Positions 16,339-34,791 of a DNA stretch of 64,000 nt are shown here, piece after piece. A program made the position numbers and the translations under genes. How positions within the stretch are numbered: the first letter of the stretch is position 1; every line of letters begins with the position of its first letter. The stretch spans positions 496,001 through 560,000 of the forward strand of contig JABSSW010000007.1 in the NCBI GenBank assembly GCA_018902385.1. The letters run 5' to 3'. The stretch comes from Physcia stellaris (taxonomy: Eukaryota; Ascomycota; Lecanoromycetes; Caliciales; Physciaceae). A model generated the notes under the pieces. That model saw nothing but the letters and a program-made list of their open reading frames with translations. It was not told the origin of the DNA and ran no database searches.

Positions 16339-16343
16339 GCTTG

Positions 16344-16496
16344 TGTTACAGGTATGTAGGATGCAACGTGCTTATATTCATGATAATATTGTCTATCGTA
16401 CATGTGATGAATGTGAATTATTGTACAGAGTTTGCACGCTAATTTATAATAAAATAACGTCTTGACATTGTTTTTGATAATAAATTTATTTCAACA
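16344..16496 (-). repeat. LTR of Copia A, outer (3' LTR)
   Basis: 153 bp, starting TGTTACAGG and ending TTTCAACA. It is less mutated than its partner at 21,428. It keeps two AGG, one GAG and several CT dinucleotides that the inner copy has lost. An A-run on the minus strand, the likely mutated polypurine tract, lies immediately inside. Confidence 0.9.
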
Positions 16497-16534
16497 TTTT
16501 TTTTCGAATTTGCAAAAATATAAAATCATGATGT

Positions 16535-17196
16535 TTAATTCATTTCGAACATGTCGATAAATCGTTGATATTTGAACGAAAATAAAAATTTGATGAAATC
16601 GTCGATTGACATGATGTCGATCGTTATATATTTGAATTCAATGCGATTTTTTTTAATTTCGTTTTTTATATAATGATATACAATATCGACGTGTTTGATG
16701 CGATTATAATGTATCGAATTTTCATTGAATGTTTTGACGTTTTGATTGTTCGTATTTATCAATATTTTGACGTAATTGTTCGATTGATTTTGAATTCGTA
16801 AATTAACGAATAATTGTTTGAATTAAATAATTTTTTGACGATAAATGATATGATCATATATTCGACGACGCAAATAAACGTGATTACAATAAATTGAAAT
16901 TTTGACATTCAATTTATCGAATCGTCGTTTAATAAAAACAAATATGTTTCGATGAATTTTTTAAAAATTTTGTCACGAATTCAATTTGCATCGCAATATG
17001 TTTCGATGTTTAATTTTTTGTTGAAATTATCGTCGTAAATTATGCAAAAATTAATCATGAAATTGAAATAAATTATAACACGTTTGATTGTTTTGATATG
17101 ATTAAAATTGAAATTTTGAACAAATCGATTGATTATAAAAATCGCATTCGTTACATTTGATTTAATTTTTATCATTGCAAATATGATTGAATTCAT
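16535..17196 (-). pseudogene. Copia A RNase H remnant
   Basis: Minus-strand frames retain Copia RNase H text: FAMIKIKSNVTNAIFIINRF (compare the family's YAMLGTRPDIAYAVSVVSR) and HVDIVYHYIKNEI, the remnant of the conserved HIDVRYHFIR-type motif. Stops separate the pieces. The composition is biased to Ile, Asn, Phe and Lys by mutation. Confidence 0.75.
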
Positions 17197-17611
17197 TATT
17201 GTTTAATATTGTTTGATATTTTGATTGATAATTTGATTAACGTTGAAAATTGAATCAAATGATTTTTTATGAATATTCGAATTGATTTTGCATTTTGTAA
17301 ATCGAATTTTTTAACGACGCGTTGAATATATGTTTTTTAATTAAAACGAATTATGTGCATTTCGTCATTTTTGAAAATGATTATATCAAAATAAAAATTT
17401 ATTGATTCAAAATCAATCATGTCGAAAACGTTATTGAATTTTGTTTTTGTTTTGTTAATCATGATTTTATTGAAAACAATAATTTTGATATTATCGATTC
17501 ATGTAATAATAATAAAATTTTTAAAATCAACATTCGTGACGAATATGTTTTGATTCGCGTCGAAAAAATTGAAAATTAATTTTTGTAAAAAAATTCGAAC
17601 AAACGTTTATA

Positions 17612-17809
17612 TCAAAATTTGAATGATTGTTTCAAATTATACAATATTTTGTTCAATTTGCAAATAATTTTGTCATTGTCACATTCAATCGAATATTTAA
17701 CGTAAATATTTGAATTAATGAATTCGTATAAAAACGTAATTTTCACGTTCATTTGTTCAATTTTCAAATTCAAAAAAACGACAACGACGAATAAAATTCG
17801 AAAAATCAT
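17612..17809 (-). pseudogene. Copia A reverse transcriptase remnant
   Basis: The frame contains KIEQMNVKITFLYEF and CKLNKILYNLKQSFKF. These match the Copia reverse transcriptase motifs around Q-MDVKTAFLNGEL and KLKKSLYGLKQSPR. Upstream and downstream parts are broken by stops. The same domain recurs in mirror position in copy B at 33,267-33,464. Confidence 0.8.
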
Positions 17810-18282
17810 TGATTTGACGACGAAAACAAAAATTTGATTAAAATCAATGTCATATTATTGTAAAAAATTTTTGACATATTATTTAATTTTGTATTGTATT
17901 ACAACGTTATCGACATTGCGTTTAAATTTATAAATTCATTTATCGTTCAACGATTTTTTTTATCGAACGTGAAATTTATTAGATTTCAAATGTGATTTTT
18001 CAATAAAAAATCGAGTTTTTTTTTTATTGTTTTTAATTATTATGAAAAATGAAAATTTCGTACGACGTCGTTATAATTATTTGATTTTTTTCGTCGATCG
18101 TCAACATTGTTATAAATTTTTCAAACGAAAAAACGTCGATGTTTTCGACGTAATCGATCAACAATAAAACGAAATTGATTGTATCAAATTCAACGTTTAC
18201 AATTGAAATTGATTGAAAATCAACAATGTTGTCGAACAAAACAATTAAATCATTTGAATTTGAATTTCAATTTGCAAACAAT

Positions 18283-18873
18283 TCACGCATTGCTAAATAA
18301 AACATCGTGAAATTGACAAAAATTATAACATTGTAAACGATAAAATTCATAAAAAAAATTATTCGAATTGTTTTTTGTTTGAACGTATTGTAACGTATTT
18401 TTGTAAAATTTTTGAAAATTTTTTTGTTGTTGTGACGTCATTGATTTTTGTATAATAATATTTGAAAATTTGATTTTGATATGTGATCGAATTTCAATGT
18501 TTTGAAAAATTTGAAATTGAATTTCTTGCTTTTTTGTCGTGAATTTAATGTGAATAACAAAAAAATTTATCATTGTTGAATTAACAATTGATTCGATAAA
18601 ATTTTTATCGAATTCGATATTAATTTTTGATGTTAATTTATGATCGTAAATATCGAAATTTTTGACGCGTTCGATTTTTTGACTAATCGATATGTAAATT
18701 CGATAAATGATGTTATCGTCATATTCGATGAAAATTTTTTTTTCGACGTTCGATTTAAAATGATTTTTGATTTTTTTGTTGATAACAACGTAAACGATTG
18801 ATTCGAATAAATACATGTTCGTCAATTTCGAAAATTGTTCGTAAATATTTTCGAACGATGATTGATTTTTCAA
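18283..18873 (-). pseudogene. Copia A integrase C-terminal remnant
   Basis: A 196-codon frame with FESIVYVVINKKIKNHFKSN followed by IFIEYDDNIIYRIY. This corresponds to the Copia integrase tail (FG-x-V-IPKEKR-KLDPK-x-IFVGYD-x-YRVW). It is the longest surviving frame of copy A. It continues as the linker towards reverse transcriptase. Confidence 0.75.
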
Positions 18874-19965
18874 ATACGAAATTAAACGTCGATTTTTGAT
18901 ATACGTTATTGCATATGTGATGTTTGATCACAAAAAATTCGATATATTTTTCGTTAATAACGTTGTTTTGATTATGATAATAAAAATGCGTTAATATGTT
19001 TCGATTACATCATTGACGTTTTGAACATTTGTTGAAATTGAATTGAATTGATATTTTGATTGTCAAAATAATTGATTGATTGCGTGTTGCGAAATTCGTT
19101 GTCATAATTTGTACGTACGATTTTGACGTCAACATCGAATTGACGTTTGATTCAATTGATATATTTAATAAAACATTGTGTCATTCGTGTTTGTTTTTGA
19201 CGATGTATATTTTCGTTTAACGTAATTTGTTATCGATAATATTGATATAATAACGTTAATTTTCAAAATTTTCGATCGTTATTGATATTAAATCAATGTA
19301 AATAATATGAAACGTTTTTTCGACATGATGAATATTTTTTTTTATTCGATTTTTTTTGTTTTGATTAATTTGCAAACATCACAATGATTATTTTTGCAAT
19401 CGTTTTGATAAAAATAATTCAATTTTTTAAATATTGACGTAATAAAAAAATTCATGTAATTCAAATTTCGATATCATACGATAAACGACAATAATAATGT
19501 TGTTGACAATGCAATCATTTAATGTAATTGCAATTTCAAAATGTATAATTCGTTGTTTTGCAAAAAAACATATTCGATTGATTTGTTTTGATGTTTGAAA
19601 ATGTAATTTTCAATATTTCAATAAACGTTTTGTTTTTCGAATATTGATATTGACAACAAATTTGTTGACGAATTTAACATATAAAAAATTGACAAATCAA
19701 TGAATTGATCATTTGCATTGTTGTAAAAAAAAACGAACAATAATTTGATTTTTTTTTTCAACAATAAAACGAATTTTGTTTGCAATTACAACATGTTCGA
19801 TGTGAAACATGAAAAAATATATAAAATTTCGATTTTTGCACACATGAATATTGACGTTCGAATTTGTATATCACAATATATCGTTGATTGAATGATTAAT
19901 GAACAAAATTTATTTTCAAAATTCAATCAACGACGTTGATTGTTATTATGAATTTTGAATTTTTT

Positions 19966-21424
19966 TCAAAATTTTGTCGTATGAATGATCAAATATGTTT
20001 TTGTCAATTCATTTTTTGAAAATGTTTTTAAATGATTATAATAACATTTTTCAAAATCATGTTTAATGAAATCGTTGTTTATGTATTTTTGATGCAAAAA
20101 AAAATCGATGTATTCAAATTTTGATGTATTAAAACGAATACGTTTAAATTTTTCGAAACGATCGACGATCAATGCAATTAAATTTGATTTTGTTATCGTA
20201 TCGATAATGATTTTAACGAAATTCAAAAAAAAATTTCGATTTCGATGAAATTTGTGTTTTCGAAAATTCATTCGTCACGTTGACGAATCACGAAATAATT
20301 GAAATGAATTAATTTGTGCATTTTGAACAACAAAATATTTTGATAAAATACGTCGACAATGAATTTCGAATCAATTTTTTCGATAATCAATTGATTGTGT
20401 AATGATTCGACGATTTTAATATAAAATTCGACGTTCGTTAAAATGACAAATCGATCAATGAAATCGAAAATGATATCGACGAAAAAAACAAAAATATTTT
20501 TTGAAACGTTTTGTTATTTTTGTTCAATAAATCAATGATGTTGAATTCGTTATGACAATAATAAAAAAACAATAATTGACGTTCATTGCATTGAACAAAT
20601 AAAAAAAAAAAATTTATTCAAATTTCATTCGTGTTTTTCGACGATAATGATGAAATTCGTAAATTTGATTTTCGTTTTTGCATCGATAAAATTTCAATCG
20701 ATATTTTTGTCGTGTAAAAATTCGACGATAAACATTAATTTTATTGATAAATTGATTGTTCAATAAAATTATTCAACGTAATTGATTCGAAAATCGTTTT
20801 TGACGTCGATTTTTCAATTAAAATATTGTTTTGATTTTGAAATGAAAACGACAAAATTGTGAATGATATTTGACGTAATCATTGTGATATTTGAATTTAA
20901 AAATTTGAATCGTATAAATGAAAAAAAAAAAAAAAACGTATATGATTCGTGAAATCGTGTAAAACGTGTAAATTTCATGTCGTATTTGTTTTTTTTTTTT
21001 TTCATTTCGTAACAAATGAATTCGAAACATCGATTCGAAATAATGACGAATTCATTGAATTATCGAATCGTATATGTGAAATTTCGTGTTTTTTGAAAAC
21101 GTTTTTATTGAAATCGAATAATCGATCGTGCGTTCGAATTTGACGTTCGTTTAAACGATAAATGACGTTTTAAATCGATCGACGTCGATGTTGATTTTTG
21201 AATTTTTGAAAAATTAAATAACGATCGTTAAAATAAACAATATGCATTTTATTGACGACATTAAATGACGATAAATTCGTTGTAAATTCAATTTGATATT
21301 TTCGAATTTGATTGTCGTTTAATTTATCAAAAATTTTTCGATCGATGCATGAAATCAATGTTTGAACATTGTAAAATAATATGAATCGATTCGAATGATG
21401 TTTGACAAACATTGTCGAATTCAT
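19966..21424 (-). pseudogene. Copia A gag region remnant
   Basis: Broken minus-strand frames (19,966-20,271; 20,814-21,005; 21,170-21,424) occupy the gag position next to the 5' LTR. The first contains FEKCYYNHLKTFSKNE, which may be a decayed zinc knuckle. Assignment rests mainly on position; the same pieces recur inverted in copy B. Confidence 0.5.
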
Positions 21425-21427
21425 AAT

Positions 21428-21581
21428 TTGTTACAAATATGTAAAATGCAACGTGTTTATATTCATGATAATATTGTTTATCGTACATGTGATGAATGTG
21501 AATTATTGTACAAAATTTGCACGTTAATTTATAATAAAATAACGTTTTGACATTGTTCTTGATAATGAATTTATTTCAACA
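21428..21581 (-). repeat. LTR of Copia A, inner (5' LTR)
   Basis: About 154 bp, starting TGTTACAAA and ending TTTCAACA. Compared with the outer LTR, about 12 substitutions are seen by hand. Eleven are C to T before a pyrimidine (or the strand equivalent) and one is in CpA/TpG. Confidence 0.9.
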
Positions 21582-21600
21582 ATTTGTGTGAAATATTGAT
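21582..21600. repeat. 19-bp spacer with two target site duplications
   Basis: The spacer reads ATTTG-TGTGAAATA-TTGAT. Its first five bases are the right target duplication of Copia A (left copy GCTTG at 16,339-16,343). Its last five are the left target duplication of Copia B (right copy CTGAT at 34,787-34,791). Every mismatch is ApG to ApA or CpT to TpT. The original locus therefore had the two insertion points 9 bp apart between duplications. Confidence 0.85.
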
Positions 21601-21797
21601 TGTTGAAATAAATTCATTATCAAAAACAATGTCAAAACGTTATTTTATTATAAATTAACGTGCAAATTCTGTACAATAATTCACATTCATTACATGTACG
21701 ATAAATAATATTATCGTAAATATAAACACGTTGTCACATATACGATAAATAATATTATCATGAATATAAACACGTTACATTTTACATATTTGTAACA
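21601..21797 (+). repeat. LTR of Copia B, inner (5' LTR)
   Basis: 197 bp, TGTTGAAAT to TTTGTAACA. It contains two tandem copies of a 44-bp segment that occurs once in the LTRs of copy A. It is strongly mutated relative to its partner at 34,590. Confidence 0.9.
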
Positions 21798-24200
21798 AAT
21801 TATAAATTCGACAATGTTTATCAAATATTATTCGAATCGATTCATATTATTTTACAACGTTCAAACGTTGATTTCATGTAAATCGATCGAAAAATTTTTG
21901 ATGAATTAAACGACGATTAAATTTGAAAACATCAAATTGAATTCATAACGAATTTATTATCATTTAATGTCGTCAATAAAATGCATATTGTTTATTTTAA
22001 CGATCGTCATTTAATTTTTTAAAAATTCAAAAATTAATATCGACGTCGATCGATTAAAACGTCATTCATCGTTTAAGCGAACGTCAAATTCGAACGCACG
22101 ATCGATCATTCGATTTCGATAAAAACGTTTTCAAAAAACACGAAATTTCACATACACGATTCGATAATTCAATGAATTCGTCATTGTTTCGAATCGATGT
22201 TTCGAATTCATTTATTACGAAATGAAAAAAAAAAACAAATACGACATGAAATTTACACGTTTTACACGATTTCACGAATCACATACGTTTTTTTTTTTTT
22301 TTTCATTTATACGATTCAAATTTTCAAATTCAAATATTACAATGATTACGTCAAATATCATTCACAATTTTGTCGTTTTCATTTCAAAATCAAAATAATA
22401 TTTCAATTGAAAAATCGACGTCAAAAACGATTTTCGAATCAATCACGTTGAATAAACAATCAATTTATCAATAAAATTAATGTTAATCGTCGAATTTTTA
22501 CATGACAAAAATATCGATTGAAATTTCATCGATATAAAAACGAAAATTAAATTCACAAATTTTATCATCGTCGTCGAAAAACACGAACGAAATTTGAATA
22601 AAAATTTTTTTATTTGTTCAATGCAATGAACGTCAATCATCGTTTTTTTATTATTGTTATAACGAATTCAACATCATTGATTTATTGAACAAAAATAACA
22701 AAACGTTTCAAAAAAAATATTTTCGTTTTTTTCGTCGATATCATTTTCGATTTTATTGATCGATTTGTCATTTTAACGAACGTCGAATTTTACATCAAAA
22801 TCGTCGAATCATTACACAATCAATTGATTATCGAAAAAATTGATTCGAAATTTATTATCGACATATTTTATTAAAATATTTTGTTGTTCAAAATGCACAA
22901 ATTAATTTATTTCAATTATTTCGTGATTCGTCAACATGACGAATAAATTTTCGAAAATACAAATTTTATCGAAATCGAATTTTTTTTGAATTTCGTTAAA
23001 ATCATTATCGATACGATAACAAAATCAAATTCAATTGCATTGATCGTTGATCGTTTCGAAAAATTTAAACGTATTCATTTCAATACATTAAAATTTGAAT
23101 ACATCGATTTTTTTTTGTATCAATCAAAAATACATAAACAACGATTTCATTAAACATGATTTTAAAAATGTTATTATAATCATTTAAAAAACGTTTTCAA
23201 AAAATAAATTAACAAAAACATGTTTGATCATTCATACGACAAAACTTTGAAAAAAACTCAAAACTCACAATAACAATCAACGTCGTTGATTGAATTTTGA
23301 AAACAAATTTTGTTCATTAATCATTCAATCAACGATATATTGTGATACACAAATTCGAACGTCAACATTCACGTGTGCAAAAATCGAAATTTTATACATT
23401 TTTTCATGTTTTACATCGAGCATGTTGTAATTGCAAACAAAATTCGTTTCATTGTTGAAAAAAAAAATAATCAAATTATTGTTCGTTTTTTTTTACAACA
23501 ATGCAAATAATCAATTCATTGATTTGTCAATTTTTTACATGTCAAATTCGTCAACAAACTTGTTGTCAATATCAACATTCGAAAAACAAAACGTTTATTG
23601 AAACATTGAAAATCATATTTTCAAATATCAAAACAAATTAATCGAATATGCTTTTTTGCAAAACAACGAATTATACGTTTTGAAATTGCAATCACATCAA
23701 ATGATTGCATTGTTAACAACATTATCATTGTCGTTTATCGTATGACATCGAAATTTGAATTATATAAATTTTTTTTTATTACGTCAATATTTAAAAAAAT
23801 TGAATTATTTTTATCAAAACGATTGCAAAAATAATCGTTGCGATATTTGCAAATTAATCAAAACAAAAAAAAAAATCGAATAAAAAAAATATTTATCATG
23901 TCGAAAAAAACGTTTTATATTATTTATATTGATTTAATATCAATAACGATCGAAAATTTTGAAAATGAACGTTATTATATCAATATTATCGATGACAAAT
24001 TACGTTAAACGAAAATATACATCGTCAAAAACAAACACGAATGATTACAATGTTTTATTAAATACATTAATTGAATCAAACGTCAATTCGATGTTAACGT
24101 CAAAATCGTACGTACAAATTATGATAACGAATTTCGCAACACGCAATCAATCAATTATTTTGACAATCAAAATATTAAATTCAATTCAATTTCAACAAAT
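21798..24200 (+). pseudogene. Copia B 5' half (gag to integrase start), degenerate
   Basis: This half is a mirror image of 19,000-21,420. For example, the frame at 22,197-22,451 has FYTISRITYVFFFFFIYTIQ, matching the minus-strand frame at 20,818-21,030. The sequence reads through to TTTCAACAAAT at the Gypsy insertion point. No intact frame remains. Confidence 0.75.
24196..24200. repeat. Gypsy target site duplication, left
   Basis: CAAAT immediately before the Gypsy LTR. The partner CAAAT is at 32,047-32,051. The uninterrupted sequence of copy A (minus strand near 19,020-19,035) reads TTTCAACAAATGTTCAAAAC with a single CAAAT, confirming the empty site. Confidence 0.9.
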
Positions 24201-24414
24201 TGTAAAAAGATATACGACTGAATGATCAAATGACTACAAACAAACGCAATGTTTACGAAACGATGATGAATCATCGTGATAACATTATAAATAATGATAA
24301 AATTGAATCGTGAAAACGAAAAAAAGTGAAAATTTTCGAAATGTTATATTTTATCGATCAAGACGTTAAATTCGATCAAATTAACGTGTTTGACGATTTT
24401 GACATGACATGACA
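24201..24414 (-). repeat. Gypsy LTR, left (3' LTR)
   Basis: 214 bp, TGTAAAAAG to GACATGACA. About 18 differences from the right LTR are seen by hand, of which about 14 are in CpT (ApG) context. A run of A on the minus strand next to it is the likely polypurine tract. Confidence 0.9.
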
Positions 24415-27200
24415 ATTGTTTTTTTTTTTAAAATTTTGATTTTCAAAATCGAATCGTCGATGTTTTTTTTGCGTGTAATTCATTCGATTTTTCAATTTTT
24501 TCGTTTAAAAAAATTTCGTGAAAATAATTTTTTGCGTGACGTCAAATTTTGCGCGATTTTCAATTAAAATTTTTTTGTAATTTTCAATGTTGATGTTCGC
24601 GATCATGCGATAATTTTTTTGTTAATCGTGATGTTGTCATTTGAAATGTATCACGACATTCATGATACACGACACGAATATGTTCAAATCAATATTTGTT
24701 CGAATCATCAATACATTGTTGTTTTTGTTGAACAGACGAGAACAAACGTTTTTGCGACGTTTGTCTTTCACGAACTCAATTTTTTTGAACGTAATTTTTG
24801 ATTTTCGAGCACGTTCTGTTCTTTGACATTGAAATAAGCAATTTAAATCAATTTTTGTATGATTCAAATGATTTAACGATAAAACGCTGAAATTAAGATT
24901 TTTTAATTTTAGAAATAGTCGTTCAAATCGATTTTTGAACAATGTTTTTTTGTTTTTTGTTTCGTTTTTTTTTTGTTTTAAAGACGATTTTTTTACGTTT
25001 TATTCGTGTCATTTGATTTTACGCGTGATAATTTATTCGTGTCAAAATAAAACATAAAATTTCAATTTGATTTTTATTTGTCATCGTTCAAATGATTTAA
25101 TGATAAAACGCAAAAATGAAAATTTTTTAATTTTTGAAATTGTCGTTCGAATCGACGTTTGAACATCGTTTTTTTGTTTTTTTGTTTTTCGACTTGTGTT
25201 TTGATGACGATTTTTTTGCGTCATTTCAAATATAAATAAATTTGTTTTGATTTTCATTCATTTTTATTTTTACATGATTATTTTCATTATCAATGACAAA
25301 TGTTCATTGTAATTCAAATGATGAAATGTTTATTGTAATTCATGAATCGATAACGTGACGACGATTTCATTCATTGTTACGTTTTCAATGTGAAATAGAA
25401 AAAATTAATTTTCAATTGTTCGAATCGACATTAATTTGTCGTCGTTGAACAAACGTTTTGTCGCGTTCGTTGTATGATTTTTTTTCGTTTTATTTGCGAT
25501 TCATCGCGTTCGTCGTTTGTTTTGATAAATGTGTTAAACATTTAATTAACGTTTTGACGCGTACACAAAAATTCATTGCGATCATTTTTTCATTTTTTTT
25601 CTTTAATATTTCTTTGAAACAGTTTGATAAAAATGTTTTTCGCGTTTAAATTGTGTTTTGTTGACGTTGACAATTTGTACAATATCAAAATTGTCAACAA
25701 TAAATTTATTATTTTTTTTTTTTTGATTGTTGTTACTGAAACACGTAATGATTTCGCGTGACGTCAAAATCAAAACTGTAAATTTGATTTGATTTCGTGA
25801 TTTCGTGTATTAATTTTTTTAGTTTTTTAAACGTGTTGTGAACACGTTTCGTGTAAAATGTTATATGAAATACGTCAAACGCAAATTTGACGATGTCGAA
25901 CATGAAATATGTATTTTGCGTTTTCAATTGATCGCGTTGATTTGCGCAATGTTTTCGATCGTTTCACGACGACAAATGTTTTACGTGCGTGTCGATTCGC
26001 AAAGTTTTGTACGTTAATTTTTTTAAATATGTTTGTCGAATTTAATAACATTTAATGATTTTGACAATTGCAATAAAATATAAACGCGACAATTTGATGT
26101 TCAATTTGCAATTGCGTTTGAAAAATACGATTGTGAAAATTCAACAACATTTTACACAACAAAAAAATCAAATCAACATCGTTTTATTGAGAATTTGTTG
26201 TTGCGTTTGAAATTTCGACTCGTCGACATCAATCAAATTTTACGTTTTATGATCGACTCGTTTCGCGTCAATGAAAATTTTTCAATTATGCGTTTCGCGA
26301 ATTTCTCGAATGAAAAAAAAAATGAAAATCAGATTTCGATTGATGTTGAAATCATGAATTTCGACGACAATGACGTCGAATAAACGTGATGATCGTTTTT
26401 GAACATTATTTTTATCAAAATCGAACAAATCGTAATCAATCGAAAAAGTCGATACGATAAAAGCGAAAATAAAATTCAAAACGATGTTCATTGTAATTCA
26501 CAAATTTTGATTTGTGATTTTTTTAACACAAAAACGACGACGAGTTGAAAAAACATCGCATGAAAAAATTAATTGATAATTTCAACATGTTTATTAATCA
26601 TTTGTACATATTCAATGCAACGACACAATTATTAAAAAAATGAACTTTATTGACTTTATTACATGTGAGACAATTTATTGTAAAAAAATTCGCATTTTGC
26701 GTTTTTTTTGTTACAAATCGTCGTTTTTTTTTCTGAATTTCAATTTGATTTCGCAAAATTTCGTTTGAACGATCGTTCTTTTTTTTTGACGAAAAATGAC
26801 AATTGAATTTCGACACGTTTTCGTTTGAACGTCGTCAACGTTTCGTCGACGTTATTCAAATTTTTTTTTTAATTCATTTATCATCACATGATGAATATTC
26901 TTTTCAGCGAATCAAATATCGAAACATTTTTTTTTTCACGTCGAAAATTTTTTCTATTTTTCATTTTTCGTGATCGTTTATCAAAATTATTTTCGCAAAC
27001 GATTTTGTGAATTCGTTGATATGATATTTTTCGAATAAAAACACGTGAAATATTGAATGAATGCGTCATTTGAATGACAATTTTAAACGATAAATTTGCG
27101 TGTCGACAACGTTTTTTATTTCAAAAAATTCGATGTATTTGTCGAACAGTTTTTTTTTTTGATCGCATTTGTTTTAAATTTTTGATCGACAACATGATTT
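24415..27200 (-). other. Gypsy 3' region without recognised domain
   Basis: This stretch between the integrase remnant and the 3' LTR holds only short broken frames on both strands (for example 24,637-24,942 minus, 101 codons). I recognise no chromodomain, envelope or nuclease motif. Mutation has been too heavy to judge whether an additional gene was present. Confidence 0.4.
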
Positions 27201-27243
27201 TGTTTTTTACATTGTATGTTTTCGCGAATGTTTTTTTGTTGAT

Positions 27244-28554
27244 TCATTTTGTTTGCGTTTCATTATTGTGTTTCAAATTTTTTTGTAATTTTTTTCGCTT
27301 ATCGAACAAATTTTGAAATTTTTGTTTCGTCGTCGAAATGTTTTGTTGAACAAAATCGAATTTGAAATTGAAATTTGAAATGTATTCGAACAAAATTTCA
27401 AACGAAATTAATTCAATAAACGCGTGTTTCGCGCAATTGTATACGAAAACGATCATTAACAACAACGAAATTCAATTGTTTTGTTTGTGATTGCAAAAAC
27501 ATCGCAAATAATATTCAAAAATTTGATTTTGTTTTTTTGTTTGATTATTTGTTTGTGAATGAAAAACGATATTAAATTTGCGTTTAATTTTCGCGTGATA
27601 ACACAATGTTGATCAAAAATTGTTTGTGAACAAAAATTCACGATTTGAAATTATGTTTTTCGATAAATCATATTTCAAAAAAACGTCGTCGAAAAACAAA
27701 TCACACATTTCGTTTGTTTTCATGATGAATTTGATCGAAACGTAAATCGTCATTTTGATGTATCGATTTATTATTATCATGATCGAATCGTAAATTTTTT
27801 TGCGTCATTTATTGAATGAAAATTTTGTGATCATATCAATGATAATTTTTTTTCATGATTTTGTCGACATCGACAATTTCGACAATTTTTCGTAAAAACG
27901 ATAATGATGAATTTTTGTTTTTTGACATATCGCGCATTTTTTGATGTATTTTTCGATGTTTTTTCGCATATACATTCAATAAAATTTTCGTTGAATGAAA
28001 TCAACGATTTTTTCAATTTCGAAATGTTTCGCAAAAAAATCGTCGTAACAACGTCGCAAAATTTCGATTTTTAAATTTGTTTCATTTGATACATATACAA
28101 CATGTTAATATCGTAAAATATTGTTCGAATTTAATGTTCAATTTTTAAATTTTTTGTCGTTTCGTATGAACGCGCGACGTTTTACGCATTCATTGTCGAA
28201 TATTTGCAATTTTTCAATTTTGTTGAAAAATTTTTGAAATGAATTTTCGTACGAATTTTTTTTGTCACACGTTTTAACAGTTTTTTTTCGACGCATTGTT
28301 TGCAATATCGCGACAATTTCGTTTTGAGAATTTTTTTTTGAAAATTTTTCGTCAAAAATTTTTTCGCATTGTTCAAATTTCGTTGAAAACGCGATATTGA
28401 CAATTGCGATGTTTCGAAATTTGTTTTGTAACGTGAACAAACAAATATTATCGTTTTCATTTTCGTTTTCGTAATTTGAGCGTCGAAATGATTCGTTTGT
28501 TGAATTGAAATTTTCATTTTTGTATTTGATTTCAAAATCGTATTCGTTTAACAA
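27244..28554 (-). pseudogene. Gypsy RNase H end and integrase remnants
   Basis: The frame at 28,138-28,554 begins MLNEYDFEIKYKNENFNSTN, the decayed form of the RNase H/integrase linker (L-x-x-YDF-x-I-x-Y-x-PGK-N-x-AD-x-LSR). 27,831-28,034 may be the zinc-binding part of integrase. 27,244-27,465 has VYNCAKHAFIELISFEILFEY, matching the integrase core motif A-YN-x-x-H-x-S-x-G-x-x-PFE-x-x-YG (one residue over 20 is only given as an approximate frame). All pieces are separated by stops. Confidence 0.75.
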
Positions 28555-29242
28555 TAAAATTCATTTGATTTGTCGTTTGTTCAAAAACGTAATAAACATG
28601 AAATATTTCAAATTGTTGTAATTCGACATTACGATGATCGTGAATTGATTATTTTTTAAATAATGACGTTATTGTTTGAAATTTTTCACGATAACGAGCA
28701 ATTTTTGATCGTGCGTTGAATATTTAATTTCGACAAATATCATTTTTTTTGAATAAAAAACGACGAAATGTCATTGCGTTTGATTTTCGATGTCGAGATT
28801 TTTTATCAATTGCGAAATCATTTTCGCGATGACGAATTTTGAAACATCGATTTCAATCATTGTTCGATTATTGAAATCGAAATGCATCAACATGAACGTT
28901 TCGATGAACATGCGAATGAATTTTTTGAAAATTTTTATTGTTTCGTCGTTTCAAATGAATTCGTCGATTTGTTTTTCGTTTTTGTTATTTTTCAATAATT
29001 CGAACAGTGAACGCGACATTTTCGCGTATTTTACGATGAATTTTCGATAGAAATTTGCGAATTTCAGAAAAATTTGCAATTTTTTGAAATTGTCAAAAAT
29101 CGATCATGATTTGATCGAGTTTATTTTTTTCATGTTTATGACTATTTTTTTGTTATTGATGATATATTTTAGAAACTCGATAAATTTTTGCATAAATCGA
29201 CATTTGATCAGATTGACGAAAAAATTAAATTTTCGAAAACGT

Positions 29243-29985
29243 TTAAACATCGCTTTTACGTGACGTCAATTTTTTTTCGTTCGAAAATAAATCAAAATGT
29301 CGTTTAAAAATAACACACACAATTTGTTTATCAATTTTGCAAACATTTTGTTCATGAACGATTGAAAAATCGTCGACGCGTTGACAAAATCGAAAAACAT
29401 CACGACGTATTCGAAAAAATCGTATCGTGTTCGAAATGCGATTTTTCATTCGTCATTCGTTTTGATTTTTATACGATAATACGCGTTTTTCAAATTTAAT
29501 TTGATGAAATACGCGACGTTCATCAAACGATTCAATGTTTCATCGATCAACGATAATGAAATTCTGTTCTTAATCGTGATCGCATTCAAATTTTTGTAAT
29601 TCACGCAAAATTTTAAATTTTCATTTTTTTTGAAAATGAATAATATCGACGCGTCAACATCGACAATCGAATGTTTGATACGATTCAACGCAAAATTTTC
29701 GCGAATGTATTTTTGAAAAATTTTTAATTTTTTTTGAAACATATTGTACAGAAATTCGAAAAACGAAAATTTGTTCGACATTAAATCAATGACATGATCG
29801 TGTTCGTCGTGCGAAAAAAACGTGATCGTCGATTTGAAAAAAAACACATTTTCGAATGTTTGCAATTCGTTCGAAATTTCGATCGACGTTTCGTCGTTTT
29901 TTCGTATGATACATATCAACGCGTACATTGAAATGATGTTATCGTTCAACATTGTCGTGAAATTTTCGAAAATGTTTAATTTCAA
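29243..29985 (-). pseudogene. Gypsy reverse transcriptase remnant
   Basis: The 179-codon frame at 29,446-29,985 contains DHVIDL, FCVNYKNLNAITIKNRISL and LIDETLNRLMNVAYFIKLNL. This is the Gypsy reverse transcriptase core (DHAIDL...CVDYR-x-LN-x-x-T-x-K-NRYPLPLIDELLDRL...FTKLDL). The catalytic Asp of KLDL reads KLNL and NRYPLP reads NRISLS, so it is dead. The downstream frame to 29,243 continues the domain in pieces. Confidence 0.88.
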
Positions 29986-30352
29986 TCGATTTTTTTTGAT
30001 TGTGTAACGTCACGTTATCGTGAATCAATGTACGTGTGAATTGTTTTTTATTATTCATGAAAAATTCATTATCAAAAAATATATCAAGTTTTGAAACGAA
30101 TAAAATTTTTGCATCGAAATGAAAAAATTATTTTTGTTATCACGAACATTCATTTTCATTTGATACGTATTAATGAAAAATTTGTTTTCGACATCGAAAT
30201 TATTCATTTTCATGAACGTTTCGTCGATGTTTTGCAAATTTCATTTTTTCGTCAACGATTTCGAAATGCAATTTATGTTAACGATCGAATTCATGAAATT
30301 TATTTGCGATTGTCATTTTTCAAAAATATTGACGTTAATGCGAATAAATATA

Positions 30353-31760
30353 TTATTTGATTGAATTTTGTATAAATTCGTCACGACAACGACGATTATC
30401 GCAACAAATTTTTTCAATTTTTCGAATCGTTTTTGATTTCGATAAATTTTGAAAATGTTTTGTTTTTATTTTTGCGAATCGCATTGACGTCGACGATTGT
30501 TTTTTTTCTTGAATGAAAATAATTTTTTTTTTTATGTTTCGATTCATCGCAATTGTAACAATTTCGATTTTTTCTCGTCGACGAATCGACGTCGTCTTTT
30601 TTGTTTTTATCAGATTGATTTTTCGTCTTATCAAATTGCGCAAAAGAATTTTTTTTGACGAAATTTTTGTTTTTTTGACGTTCACGATTTTCGAACGAAA
30701 AAATTTGCGAAAATCGAAAACGTTTTGAAAATTCTTGATAAAATGACGATCGTTTTGCATTGACGATTTTGAACAAAATTTCTTGACGAATCGTCGACGA
30801 AATTGCATCGAATGTGATAATTTCTCGTAAAATATCGTTCAAATCATAAAGAAATTTGTTTCGTTTGATGTTTTCGATGACGTTCAATTTTGTTTTCAGC
30901 GATTCGAAATACGTCGCGAATTCATTTATCGTTTTTTTTTTCTTGTTTGACATCGTTATATTTCTGATTCACATCAAAACGACGAGTCTTAAAAAATTCG
31001 ACATCGTTGTAAAAAAATTTCGAAAAATACGATCACGTCATCATCAATTTTTTTCGATGTTAATTGATTTTCTGATGCGATTTTCATAATTCGATTGAAA
31101 TCGCATCAAGAAATTGTTGCGTTCAAACGATTTTGATACAACGTTTGAAAAAATAATTAAAATTTGCGTCGAAAATTCACACGACGTTTCGAATTCACGA
31201 TTGAAATTTTTTAATATTTTTGACGTTGTAAATGAATAAATTTTTGAATTTGAATTCGATAATTCGTCGAAAACGCGAACGTTTCGAAATAAATCTATTA
31301 CGAAATTTTTCGTTGTCGTTATTGTCATCGTCGTTTTCGTTATTGAAAAACGTTTGTGAACGTTTTCGTTTTTTTTTTTTCTCAACAGCGCAAATTGAAT
31401 TAATTTCGTTTTTTCGAAATGATGTTGTATCGAAACGTCTGATTTTCGTCAAAAACAATTTATATTCACGTTTGTTTTTCGTTTTTTTTCAATTATCGCT
31501 TGAATTGTTCGCAATTGTGCGTAATTCGTTTGATCATCGAATTCGAAATCGTCGACGTTCGTTGAAACGACGATAATACGTCGAAACAACACGCGAAAAA
31601 CAACAACAATGCGTTCGTCGTCTGATGAATTTTCATGAATTGAAATCAACTCGTCTCGTTGATCGATTTCAAATTGAAACGATTTCACGATCGTGTTGTC
31701 GAGTGATGATTGTTGAAACGAAATAACGATATTGTTTCGAATAATGAAGCGCAATGACAA
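30353..31760 (-). pseudogene. Gypsy gag remnant with zinc knuckle
   Basis: The frame at 30,414-30,953 has TINEFATYFESLKTKLN (gag capsid text of the type S-V-x-EY-x-x-F-x-x-L) and, near its end, CYNCDESKHKKKNY. That is a decayed CCHC zinc knuckle in which the last Cys is replaced. Frames up to 31,760 fill the rest of the gag position next to the 5' LTR. Confidence 0.7.
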
Positions 31761-31833
31761 CAGATGTTTTCGAAATTTTAAATGATGTTATTTGATCGAA
31801 CAATCGTTCACGAAAATTTAAACGATTCAAAAC

Positions 31834-32046
31834 TGTAAGAAAATATACGATTGAGTGATCAAATGATTATAAACAAACGCAATGTCTACGAAACGATGAT
31901 GAGTCATCGTGATAACACTGTGAATAATGATAAAATTGAATCGTGAAAACGAAAAAAGTGAAAATTCTCGAAATGTTATATTTTATCGATCAAGACGTTA
32001 GACTCGATCAGATTAGCGTGTTTGACGATCTTGACATGACATAACA
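31834..32046 (-). repeat. Gypsy LTR, right (5' LTR)
   Basis: 213 bp, TGTAAGAAA to GACATAACA. It is less mutated than the left LTR and keeps TCTACG, GAGTCAT, TTAGACTCG and CAGATTAGCG. Confidence 0.9.
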
Positions 32047-32051
32047 CAAAT
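32047..32051. repeat. Gypsy target site duplication, right
   Basis: CAAAT immediately after the Gypsy LTR, identical to 24,196-24,200. Copia B resumes with GTTCAAAACG. Confidence 0.9.
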
Positions 32052-34560
32052 GTTCAAAACGTCAATGATGTAATCGAAACATATTAACGCATTTTTATTT
32101 TTATAATCAAAATAACGTTATTGACGAAAAACATATCGAATTTTTTGTGATCAAACATCACATATGCAATGACGTATATCAAAAATCGACGTTCAATTTC
32201 GTATTTGAAAAATCAATTATCGTTCGAAAATATTTACGAACAATTTTCGAAATTGACGAACATGTATTTATTCGAATCAATCGTTTACGTCGTTATCAAC
32301 AAAAAAATCAAAAATTATTTTAAATCGAACGTCGAAAAAAATTTTTATCGAATATAACGATAACATTATTTATCGAATTTATATATCGATTAATCAGAAA
32401 ATCGAACGCGTCAAAAATTTCGATATTTATAATTACAAATCAACATTAAAAATTGATATCGAATTCGATGAAAATTTTATCGAATCAATTGTTGATTCAA
32501 CAATAATAAATTTTTTGTTATTCATATTGAATTCATTGCAAAAAAACAAAAAATTCAATTTTAAATTTTTCAAAACATTGAAATTCGATTATATATCAAA
32601 ATCAAATTTTCAAATATTATCATACAAAAATCAATAACGTCACAACAACAAAAAAATTTTCAAAAAATTTTACAAAAATACGTTACAATGCGTTCAAACA
32701 AAAAACAATTCGAATAAATTTTTTTATGAATTTTATCGTTTACAATATCATAATTTTTGTCAATTTCACGATGTTTTATTTAGCAATACGTGAATTGTTC
32801 GCAAATTGAAATTCAAATTCAAATGATTTAATTGTTTTGTTCGACAACATTGTTGATTTTCAATCAATTTCAATTGCAAACGTTAAATTTGATACAATCA
32901 ATTTCGTTTCATTGTTGATCGATTACGTCGAAAACATCGATATTTTTCGTTCGAAAAATTCATAACAATATTGACGATCGACGAAAAAAATCAAATAATT
33001 ACAACGACGTCGCACGAAATTTTCATTTTTCACAATAATTAAAAACAATGAAAAAAAAACTCGATTTTTTATCGAAAAATCACATTTGAAATTTAATAAA
33101 TTTCACGTTCGATAAAAAAAAATCGTTAAACGATAAATGAATTTACAAATTTAAACGCAATATCGATGACGTTGTAATACGATACAAAATTAAATAATGC
33201 GTTAAAAATTTTTTACAACAATACGACATTGATTTTGATTAAATTTTTGTTTTCGTCGTCAAATCAATGATTTTTCGAATTTTATTCGTCGTTGTCGTTT
33301 TTTTGAATTTGAAAATTGAACAAATGAACGTGAAAATTGCGTTTTTATACGAATTCATTGATTCAAACATTTACGTTAAATATTCGATTGAATGTGATAA
33401 TGACAAAATTATTTGCAAATTGAACAAAACATTGTATGATTTGAAACAATCATTCAAATTTTGATATAAACGTTTGTTCGAATTTTTTTTTACAAAAATT
33501 AATTTTCAATTTTTCGACGCGAATCAAAACATATTCGTTACGAATATTGATTTCAAAAATTTTATCATTATTACATGAATCGATGATATCAAAATCATTG
33601 TTTTCAATAAAATCATGATTAACAAAACAAAAACAAAATTTAATAACATTTTCGACATGATTGATTTTGAATCAATAAATTTTTATTTTGATATAATCAT
33701 TTTCAAAAATCGCGAAATACACATAATTCGTTTTAATCAAAAAACATATATTCAACACGTCGTTAAAAAATTCGATTTACAAAATGCGAAATCAATTCGA
33801 ACATTCATGAAAAAATTATTTGATTTAATTTTTAACGTTAATCAAATTATCGATCAAAATATCAAACAATATCAAACAACGATAAATTCAATCATGTTTG
33901 CAATAATAAAAATTAAATCAAATATAACGAATGCGATTTTCATAATCAATCGATTTGTTCAAAATTTCAATTTTAATCATATCAAAACAATCAAACGTGT
34001 TATAATTTATTTCAATTTCACGATCGATTTTTGCATAATTTACGACGATAATTTCAACAAAAAATTAAATATCGAAACATATTGCGATGCAAATTGAATT
34101 CGTGACAAAATTTTTAAAAAATTTATCGAAACATATTTGTTTTCATTAAACGACGATTCGATAAATTGAATGTCAAAATTTCAATTTATCGTGATTACGT
34201 TTATTTGCGTCGTCGAATATATAATTATATCATTCGTCATCAAAAAAATTATTTGATTTAAACAATTATTTGTTGATTTACAAATTCAAAATCAATCGAA
34301 CAATTACGTCAAAATATTGATAAATATTAACAATCAAAACGTTAAAACATTCAATGAAAATTCAATATATCATAATCGCATCAAACACGTCGATATCGTA
34401 TATATCGTATATCATTATGTAAAAAACAAAATTAAAAAAATCGCATTGAATTCAAATACATAACGATCGACATCATGTCAATCGACGATTTCATTAAATT
34501 TTTATTTTCGTTCAAATATCAACGATTTATCGATATGTTCGAAATAAATTAAACATCATG
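32052..34560 (+). pseudogene. Copia B 3' half: integrase, reverse transcriptase, RNase H remnants
   Basis: 32,169-32,357 repeats the integrase-tail text LFESIVYVVINKKIKNYF. 33,267-33,464 repeats the reverse transcriptase text EQMNVKIAFLYEF and LKQSFKF. A frame near 33,560-33,600 reads stop-IDDI at the Copia catalytic box, where TGA (33,577-33,579) stands in the position of the residue before [VI]DD. 33,615-34,097 is a 160-codon RNase H-side frame. The element is dead but less fragmented than copy A. Confidence 0.8.
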
Positions 34561-34589
34561 ATTTTATATTTTTGCAAATTCGAAAAAAA

Positions 34590-34786
34590 TGTTGAAATAA
34601 ATTCATTATCAAAAACAATGTCAAAACGTTATTTTATTATAGACTAGCGTGCAAACTCTGTACAATAATTCACATTTATCACATGTACGATAAATAGTAT
34701 TATCATGAATATAAGCACGTTGCCACATGTACGATAGATAGTATTATCATGAATATAAGCACGTTGCATCCTACATACCTGTAACA
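34590..34786 (+). repeat. LTR of Copia B, outer (3' LTR), with 44-bp tandem duplication
   Basis: 197 bp, TGTTGAAAT to CTGTAACA. Two copies of a 44-bp unit starting CACATGTACGATA lie in tandem. It is lightly mutated and retains AGACTAGCG, AACTCTG and ATCCTACATACCTG that the inner copy has lost. It is followed by the target duplication CTGAT (34,787-34,791). Confidence 0.9.
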
Positions 34787-34791
34787 CTGAT

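Follow-up and report, generated by a model that had tools for sequence, protein, structure and literature searches.

Loss of CpC and CpT from the repeated DNA of Physcia stellaris: a probable RIP-type defence with the usual fungal context reversed

Background

According to a survey published in 2025, which covered 1,239 fungi, RIP-like defences have a preference for CpA in common (PMC12543289). RIP in Neurospora crassa depends on RID, with a DIM-2 branch for older repeats. The context order is given as CpA>CpT>CpG>CpC for Neurospora and as CpA~CpG>CpT>CpC for Trichoderma reesei (both PMC5496416). CpT to TpT and CpA are both main targets in Magnaporthe oryzae, Botrytis, Sclerotinia and Anisogramma according to the accounts consulted (PMC4352252; PMC10998396). 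RIP has been reported in other lichen fungi. The repeats of Endocarpon pusillum, with a TA/AT value of 1.47 and a substrate value of 0.70, are of the CpA type (PMC3897900), and Cladonia rangiformis is described as having AT-rich mutated repeats with sharp edges together with RID and DIM-2 homologues (PMC12542154). In Rhizoctonia solani AG8, SNPs at CpC are reported to lie closer together than those of the other three CpN classes (PMC4014442). RIP led by CpC was not found described in the open-access literature searched.

The DNA described here, called the window, is a stretch of 64,000 nucleotides of the Physcia stellaris genome (contig JABSSW010000007.1, positions 496,001 to 560,000). CpC and CpT are together written CpY, and CpA and CpG are written CpR.

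Results

The window contains a CpY-depleted island of 18.4 kb (16,344-34,786) that is made up of two Copia elements and a nested Gypsy-type element. Copia A (16,344-21,581) has LTRs at 16,344-16,496 and 21,429-21,581 and a target duplication that reads GCTTG at 16,339-16,343 and ATTTG at 21,582-21,586; the RVT_2 match within it is on the minus strand. Copia B (21,601-34,786) belongs to the same family in the opposite orientation, with LTRs at 21,601-21,797 and 34,590-34,786 and a duplication of TTGAT at 21,596-21,600 and CTGAT at 34,787-34,791. It is split by the Gypsy-type element (24,201-32,046; LTRs 24,201-24,414 and 31,834-32,046), which is flanked by CAAAT at 24,196-24,200 and 32,047-32,051, contains an RVT_1 match and takes its label from the first-pass annotation. 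At the left edge of the island (16,344-16,509) CpY sites persist to 16,461 with none beyond, and at the right edge (34,642-34,786) they return outward from 34,642.

The first-pass annotation described CpT and CpC as destroyed and CpA and CpG as spared in the island, and the recomputed counts for 16,344-34,786 agree: CC 3, CT 72, GG 2 and AG 71 against CA 1064, CG 1116 and TG 1204. In the island core (16,500-34,500), with expected counts derived from base composition, CC was observed 0 times against 268 expected and GG 0 against 303, while CT (63/862) and AG (60/830) are at 7% of expectation. CA (1031/781), CG (1101/285) and TG (1173/917) are not depleted. All 16 C and all 12 G between 22,681 and 22,800 obey the rule, as had been stated. 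The GC content of the core is 25.2%; 25.5% is predicted if CpR cytosines alone remain. The CpY-loss pattern was not seen in the 1 kb windows outside the island within the 64-kb window. The standard RIP indices of the core (product 0.45, substrate 1.29, composite -0.84) would score it as un-RIPped, and the first-pass annotation was right to warn that such indices give a false picture here.

Comparison of the LTR pairs shows the change in place. The Copia A pair (153 bp) has 12 substitutions, 11 of them CpY changes; the Copia B pair (197 bp) has 20, of which 14 are CpY changes; and the pair of the Gypsy-type element (214 columns, with one further indel) has 18, again with 14 CpY changes. The earlier hand counts (11 of 12, about 14 of 20 and about 14 of 18) gave the same figures. 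The target duplications GCTTG/ATTTG and CTGAT/TTGAT are mutated in the manner already described, and that of the Gypsy-type element (CAAAT/CAAAT) has no CpY site in it. As read from the sequence, these differences place the mutation after insertion of the elements. An original lack of CpC and CpT in the elements, like an assembly artefact, draws on nothing beyond the pattern itself. Both readings were rejected as having a negligible chance, on the changes in place in the LTRs and duplications, on the normal CpY of the intact relatives that this genome also holds and on the source of the published assembly, described as Nanopore and Illumina reads from an axenic ascospore culture (PMC7513301).

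An unmutated copy of the window's own Copia family was not found among the matches listed, and the direction of change was therefore followed in a second Copia family with unmutated copies in the same genome. From the intact copy L035 to the mutated copy L043, C has become T at 355 of 371 CpC and 319 of 429 CpT, against 27 of 489 CpA and 10 of 408 CpG; CpC and CpT were converted 13 to 39 times as often as CpA and CpG. The main mutated contexts of the pair are CpC and CpT, not CpA, and the intact copy, with its 371 CpC and 429 CpT in about 3.5 kb, is not poor in CpY; neither of the two outcomes that the first-pass annotation had named as refuting its reading was obtained. Six intact-mutated pairs all concur, with converted fractions of 0.88-0.96 for CpC, 0.50-0.74 for CpT, 0.055-0.079 for CpA and 0.025-0.062 for CpG, and these counts support the interpretation first offered, of a cytosine-mutating process with CpY preference. 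An alignment of the Copia family with 30 rows has T in 85% of the cells at CpT, 80% at CpC, 16% at CpA and 12% at CpG. Conversion is graded among copies, and CpA content drops slightly while CpT goes to zero (Spearman 0.71). The sparing of CpA is relative; CpA and CpG also mutate, at a low rate. Clustering of CpT conversion in L042 and L043 is weak at most, and strand blocks were not seen.

The context table shows that the 3' neighbour sets the mutation, with the 5' neighbour of little weight and both strands alike. As expected of RIP, the changes are C:G to T:A transitions that affect both strands and lie mainly in repeats; the CpA preference that is its usual, not universal, hallmark is absent from the Physcia stellaris repeats. 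An AID/APOBEC-type cytidine deaminase editing retroelement DNA could also give C-to-T changes on both strands of retroelements. Enzymes of this type read the 5' neighbour, and the mutation of DDE_1 elements likewise argues against them. APOBEC_N and APOBEC2 gave no six-frame match in the genome, in a search that ignored introns and lacked a positive control scoring above the cut-off. Such editing is very improbable and was rejected, since the 5' neighbour does not set the context. UV damage in a sun-exposed lichen would favour dipyrimidines such as CpC and CpT; TpC is one too, yet TCA (11/131) and TCG (2/144) are nearly unchanged in L043. With TpC barely changed, unique flanking DNA untouched and mutation confined to repeats, UV damage was rejected as scarcely credible.

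The same mutation is found elsewhere in the genome on Copia, RVT_1-bearing and DDE_1-bearing elements. It is confined to repeated sequence, as in RIP, and stops at element ends: pooled over 31 of 36 ends, those with a normal outer flank, CpY makes up 0.50 of all C in the 50 bp that adjoin the elements on the outside, against 0.05 at a depth of 200-300 bp within them. A CpY-poor near flank occurs at two of these 31 ends (L009 and L011 start), and mutation is weaker at the inner edges of elements.

Most scored transposon frames contain stops, the stop-free rows being 4 of 137 for RVT_2, 10 of 150 for RVT_1 and 1 of 10 for DDE_1. The 838 stops in transposon frames genome-wide comprise 695 TGA, 137 TAA and 6 TAG. 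The coding effect is unusual: in a codon-level comparison of two copies, tryptophan codons account for 38 of the 39 new stops, 37 of them TGA, and 37 of the 38 aligned TGG codons have turned into TGA.

Three Copia copies of 5 kb, 94-95% identical, are intact and unmutated, and stop-free RVT_1 and DDE_1 copies exist too; some repeats therefore escape mutation. The own LTRs of the three intact copies differ at 7 of 130, 8 of 147 and 10 of 146 columns with no CpY excess. LTR dating of these copies was dropped, as the differences recur between copies, show no CpY excess and give no age. A direct repeat of at least 80 bp was not found in the three loci as bounded, because the bounds start within the 5' LTR.

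A search for RID/Masc1- and Dim-2-like methyltransferases, proposed in the first-pass annotation, found a DIM-2-like gene and two RID paralogs, RID-A and RID-B, so that the genome has the RID/Masc1 class of gene associated with RIP. RID-A is an extra, DmtA-like RID paralog in a clade that includes Physcia and Heterodermia. In the alignment of 42 of 44 sequences, the RID-A clade has D306F in 11 of 11, N309K in 10 of 11 and H299Q in 11 of 11, while the other RIDs have D in 31 of 31, N in 31 of 31 and H in 26 of 31. The changes lie just past the catalytic PPCQ motif, and none of the other RIDs in the comparison departs from D306 or N309.

Discussion

The pattern is best explained, with good probability, by a RIP-type defence of Physcia stellaris that is directed at repeats and turns C into T with the context order CpC > CpT >> CpA, CpG. 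The transition type, the context, the involvement of both strands and the sharp limits at element ends are established by sequence comparison. Such a process would target repeated DNA on both strands and pick cytosines by the 3' neighbour in that order. The mutator would be an enzyme of the C5-cytosine-methyltransferase family, probably of the RID class, and would be active during the sexual cycle, like its Neurospora counterpart; a methyltransferase-like enzyme is consistent with the 3'-neighbour rule and with the DIM-2-like and two RID-type genes. The three untouched Copia copies and the stop-free RVT_1 and DDE_1 copies speak against a simple form of this reading, as do the low-rate mutation of CpA and CpG, the 137 TAA stops and the two ends with CpY-poor flanks.

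Heterochromatic methylation of the DIM-2 type, in which transposon CpY sites are methylated and the 5-methylcytosine is slowly deaminated with no RIP event involved, is a less probable account, at something like one chance in a handful. The DIM-2-like gene, the graded conversion among copies and the intact repeats, which a slow process would permit, are in keeping with it, as is the CpT preference of DIM-2 given in a review (PMC13297926). That same preference fails to predict CpC first, and the lack of spread into flanks and the weaker mutation at inner edges are more in line with a process guided by homology than with chromatin that spreads, without being decisive.

The RIP-type process favoured here shares with Neurospora crassa the repeat-directed C-to-T change on both strands and the presence of RID and DIM-2 homologues, but CpC comes first and CpA and CpG last. 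Trichoderma reesei is alike in repeat-directed C-to-T change after a cross, with a context order that is reversed in Physcia. CpT to TpT is shared with Magnaporthe oryzae, Botrytis, Sclerotinia and Anisogramma, where CpA is a main target and the accounts consulted report no CpC signature. AT-rich mutated repeats occur in both Endocarpon pusillum and Physcia, whereas the published index values of the former (1.47 and 0.70) contrast with 0.45 and 1.29 in the island. Cladonia rangiformis resembles Physcia in its AT-rich mutated repeats, their sharp edges and its RID and DIM-2 homologues. The GC peak of about 16% given for Cladonia rangiformis lies under the 25% floor that a CpY-only process would be expected to have. 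The basidiomycetes Microbotryum and Rhizoctonia solani AG8 have a non-CpA context like Physcia, yet are described as CpG-biased, and CpG is spared in Physcia. The SNPs of R. solani AG8 are reported as no denser in repeats, whereas the Physcia mutations are concentrated there.

RIP itself is already known; the Physcia stellaris signature is a reversal of the usual fungal context rule, and the genome breaks the shared CpA rule almost completely. Since the standard RIP indices give no RIP for the island, similar genomes may have been missed. The near-digital rule (CpY lost, CpR kept), the intact references in the same genome and the two RID paralogs make both the RIP context and the mutator enzyme testable. 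RID-A may supply the unusual context and is its likeliest carrier, at a little under an even chance; the mutator might just as well be RID-B or the DIM-2-like protein. It is tentatively proposed that this second, DmtA-like RID of Physcia and Heterodermia, with its catalytic loop rebuilt, switched RIP from CpA to CpC and CpT; the grouping of the gene with the DmtA line of Eurotiomycetes would reflect either transfer or an old paralogy that was retained. If true, this would be the first indication of which residues set the context of RIP.

Structure of the island

Copia A and Copia B belong to the same family and lie in opposite orientation within the island; a Gypsy-type element sits inside Copia B. 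The target duplications of the two Copia copies are separated by 9 bp, and at 21582-21600 two insertions of the same family in opposite orientation are found about 20 bp or less from each other. The LTRs differ by 44 bp in length within the family, being 153 bp in Copia A (16344-16496) and 197 bp in Copia B (21601-21797). An internal direct repeat of 120 bp is found in the Gypsy element (24839-24958 and 25063-25182, 81% identity, spacing 224). The first-pass annotation described C to T hypermutation with loss of CpC and CpT (together CpY) and sparing of CpA and CpG (CpR), and this is borne out by counts in the core of the island (16,500-34,500), by the LTR pairs and by the target duplications. 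Because the target duplications are themselves mutated, the change came after insertion.

Context of the mutations

An intact copy of a second Copia family, L035, was used as search query and as ancestor-like reference. Of the 45 rows found, three are full-length and unmutated (L035, L036 and L037, which occupy the loci also labelled L039, L040 and L041). Among the other 42, a single 432 bp fragment reaches 92% identity and all the rest lie at 68-78%. The two top-scoring mutated copies, L042 and L043, were retrieved for comparison; since they score highest they belong to the less mutated copies. The context rates agree in all six pairs of intact and mutated copies: the proportion changed to T is 0.88-0.96 for CpC, 0.50-0.74 for CpT, 0.055-0.079 for CpA and 0.025-0.062 for CpG, with a T to C background of 0-0.049. 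Intact copies compared with each other have C/T differences at 8/490 and 13/488 CpA sites and at 7/408 and 18/407 CpG sites, so the loss of CpA in the mutated copies is barely over background and that of CpG is near it. Sorted by 5' base, the L035 to L043 rates range over 0.92-1.00 for CpC and 0.66-0.86 for CpT, and do not exceed 0.08 for CpA or 0.04 for CpG; the two strands are similar (321/372 and 353/425). CpY against CpR gave a Fisher odds ratio of 124.

For the family in the window, a genome search with Copia A gave 39 rows including the query; three are parts of Copia B, and some of the remaining rows are parts of a single copy. In 30 aligned rows, columns with two states (C/T or G/A) and at least four rows were kept and all others dropped. 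All CpT columns (532/532, T in 85% of cells) and all CpC columns (27/27, T in 80%) are polymorphic, as are 583 of 796 CpA columns (16% T) and 248 of 639 CpG columns (12% T). The CpC columns are few because most such sites are T in every row and therefore invisible. That CpA and CpG columns are partly T makes the rule a strong difference in rate and no absolute bar. For an intact element that keeps its CpR cytosines alone, the predicted GC content is 25.5%, against 25.2% in the island core.

Stop codons and extent in the genome

The lichen fungus Physcia stellaris belongs to the Physciaceae (Lecanoromycetes, Caliciales). The assembly analysed, in which the window is 496001-560000 of contig C7, has 43.97 Mb in 147 contigs. 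The published totals are somewhat larger, 46.57 Mb in 184 scaffolds, with 43.32% G+C, and were obtained from an axenic ascospore culture with Nanopore and Illumina sequencing (PMC7513301). The word RIP is absent from the available text of that paper.

In matched frames, TGA, TAA and TAG stops number 401, 101 and 3 for RVT_2 (137 rows, many drawn from the same few families and hence non-independent), 250, 33 and 3 for RVT_1 (150 rows scored of 527 candidates) and 44, 3 and 0 for DDE_1 (10 rows). RIP of the CpA type would yield TAA and TAG stops, whereas here they are mostly TGA. Aligned TGG codons in L042 and L043 became TGA in 37 of 38 cases and TAA in one, a predominance caused by GpG changing to GpA; one CAG became TAG, and none of the aligned CAA or CGA codons in these two copies was turned into a stop. 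CpC occurs 0-2 times per 500 bp in four more mutated stretches, two of DDE_1 and two of RVT_1; two copies free of stops are normal in composition. With G+C at 43.3%, flanks at about 50% and islands at about 25%, island-type sequence may make up about 30% of the genome.

Element edges and intact copies

Edge profiles were made for 36 ends from 28 of 30 retrieved Copia loci, the two Copia B halves being excluded. Scored on the stretch 250-1500 bp away, the outer flank was normal at 31 ends and abnormal at five. Pooled over the 31 ends, the fraction of cytosines in CpY context is 0.50 from -50 to 0 and falls inside the element to 0.40 (0-50 bp), 0.24 (50-100), 0.21 (100-150), 0.10 (150-200) and 0.05 (200-300). 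Two of these ends (L009 and L011) have a near flank that is poor in CpY. Homology-guided action would produce such a pattern, with mutation confined to the repeat and weaker towards its ends.

The three intact 5 kb Copia copies that escape mutation have 94-95% identity (L039, L040 and L041, with L050-L052). Comparing the 5' LTR with the 3' LTR of each copy shows 7/130, 8/147 and 10/146 differing columns, mismatches that give no age for these three copies. Several of the differences recur across copies, as though the 5' and 3' LTRs were two types.

Comparison with published RIP contexts

In the available text of the papers cited here, the order is CpA>CpT>CpG>CpC in Neurospora and CpA~CpG>CpT>CpC in Trichoderma (PMC5496416). 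Magnaporthe, Botrytis and Sclerotinia are reported to mutate CpT along with CpA, and truffle and basidiomycetes to have a CpG context (PMC4352252); in Anisogramma both CpA and CpT are targets (PMC10998396), and the CpA preference is said to be shared (PMC12543289). The contrast with Physcia stellaris is softened by the statements that CpT to TpT dominates in the control fungi of one study (PMC7882544), that Neurospora Tad1 has high CpT loss by RIPCAL (PMC2621366), that CpA comes first with CpT raised in Neurospora rRNA pseudogenes (PMC5555474) and that Monilinia has CpA-type and double mutations (PMC8959702). DIM-2 is described as preferring CpT (PMC13297926). The available parts of PMC11969663 and PMC13207899 contain no dinucleotide rule for RIP. 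RIP with CpC first was not found in the open-access literature searched. The CpC SNPs of Rhizoctonia solani AG8 are more tightly spaced than those at CpA, CpG or CpT (PMC4014442 Table 2), although a section heading in the same paper names a CpG bias.

Methyltransferase genes

A PF00145 profile search of the genome, done in six frames without introns so that an intron-rich or divergent methyltransferase may escape it, found three genes. One, named DIM-2-like, matches over residues 220-905 (E 2e-181) PDB 9bap, which we take to be Neurospora DIM-2. The other two are of the RID class. RID-B has an EQT motif and relatives across named Lecanoromycetes, and its catalytic half matches G7Y79_00005g016670 of Physcia stellaris at 100% identity. 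RID-A (locus L001, contig C6) has an EET motif and 507 amino acids when spliced by eye.

A tree was built from 53 catalytic domains, four of them shorter than 250 residues. In it the RID-A clade has eight rows including Heterodermia (support 100/100, stem 0.79). It joins the Eurotiomycete DmtA with support of 100/99 (93/99 in an earlier tree) and is separate from the long RIDs and from the short form found in Teloschistales, Lecanora and Psora. This grouping with DmtA and not with other lichen RIDs may reflect an old paralog or a transfer.

Residues were compared between 11 rows of the RID-A clade and 31 other RID rows. The clade has Gln at position 299 (11/11; His in 26 and Lys in five of the others), Phe at 306 (11/11; Asp in 31/31), Lys at 309 (10/11; Asn in 31/31) and Leu at 314 (11/11; Phe in 29/31). 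Of the ten positions specific to the clade, five fall within 299-314, 7-22 residues past the catalytic Cys 292, where M.HhaI has its DNA-facing catalytic loop. These residues make RID-A a candidate for the enzyme behind the unusual CpY context.
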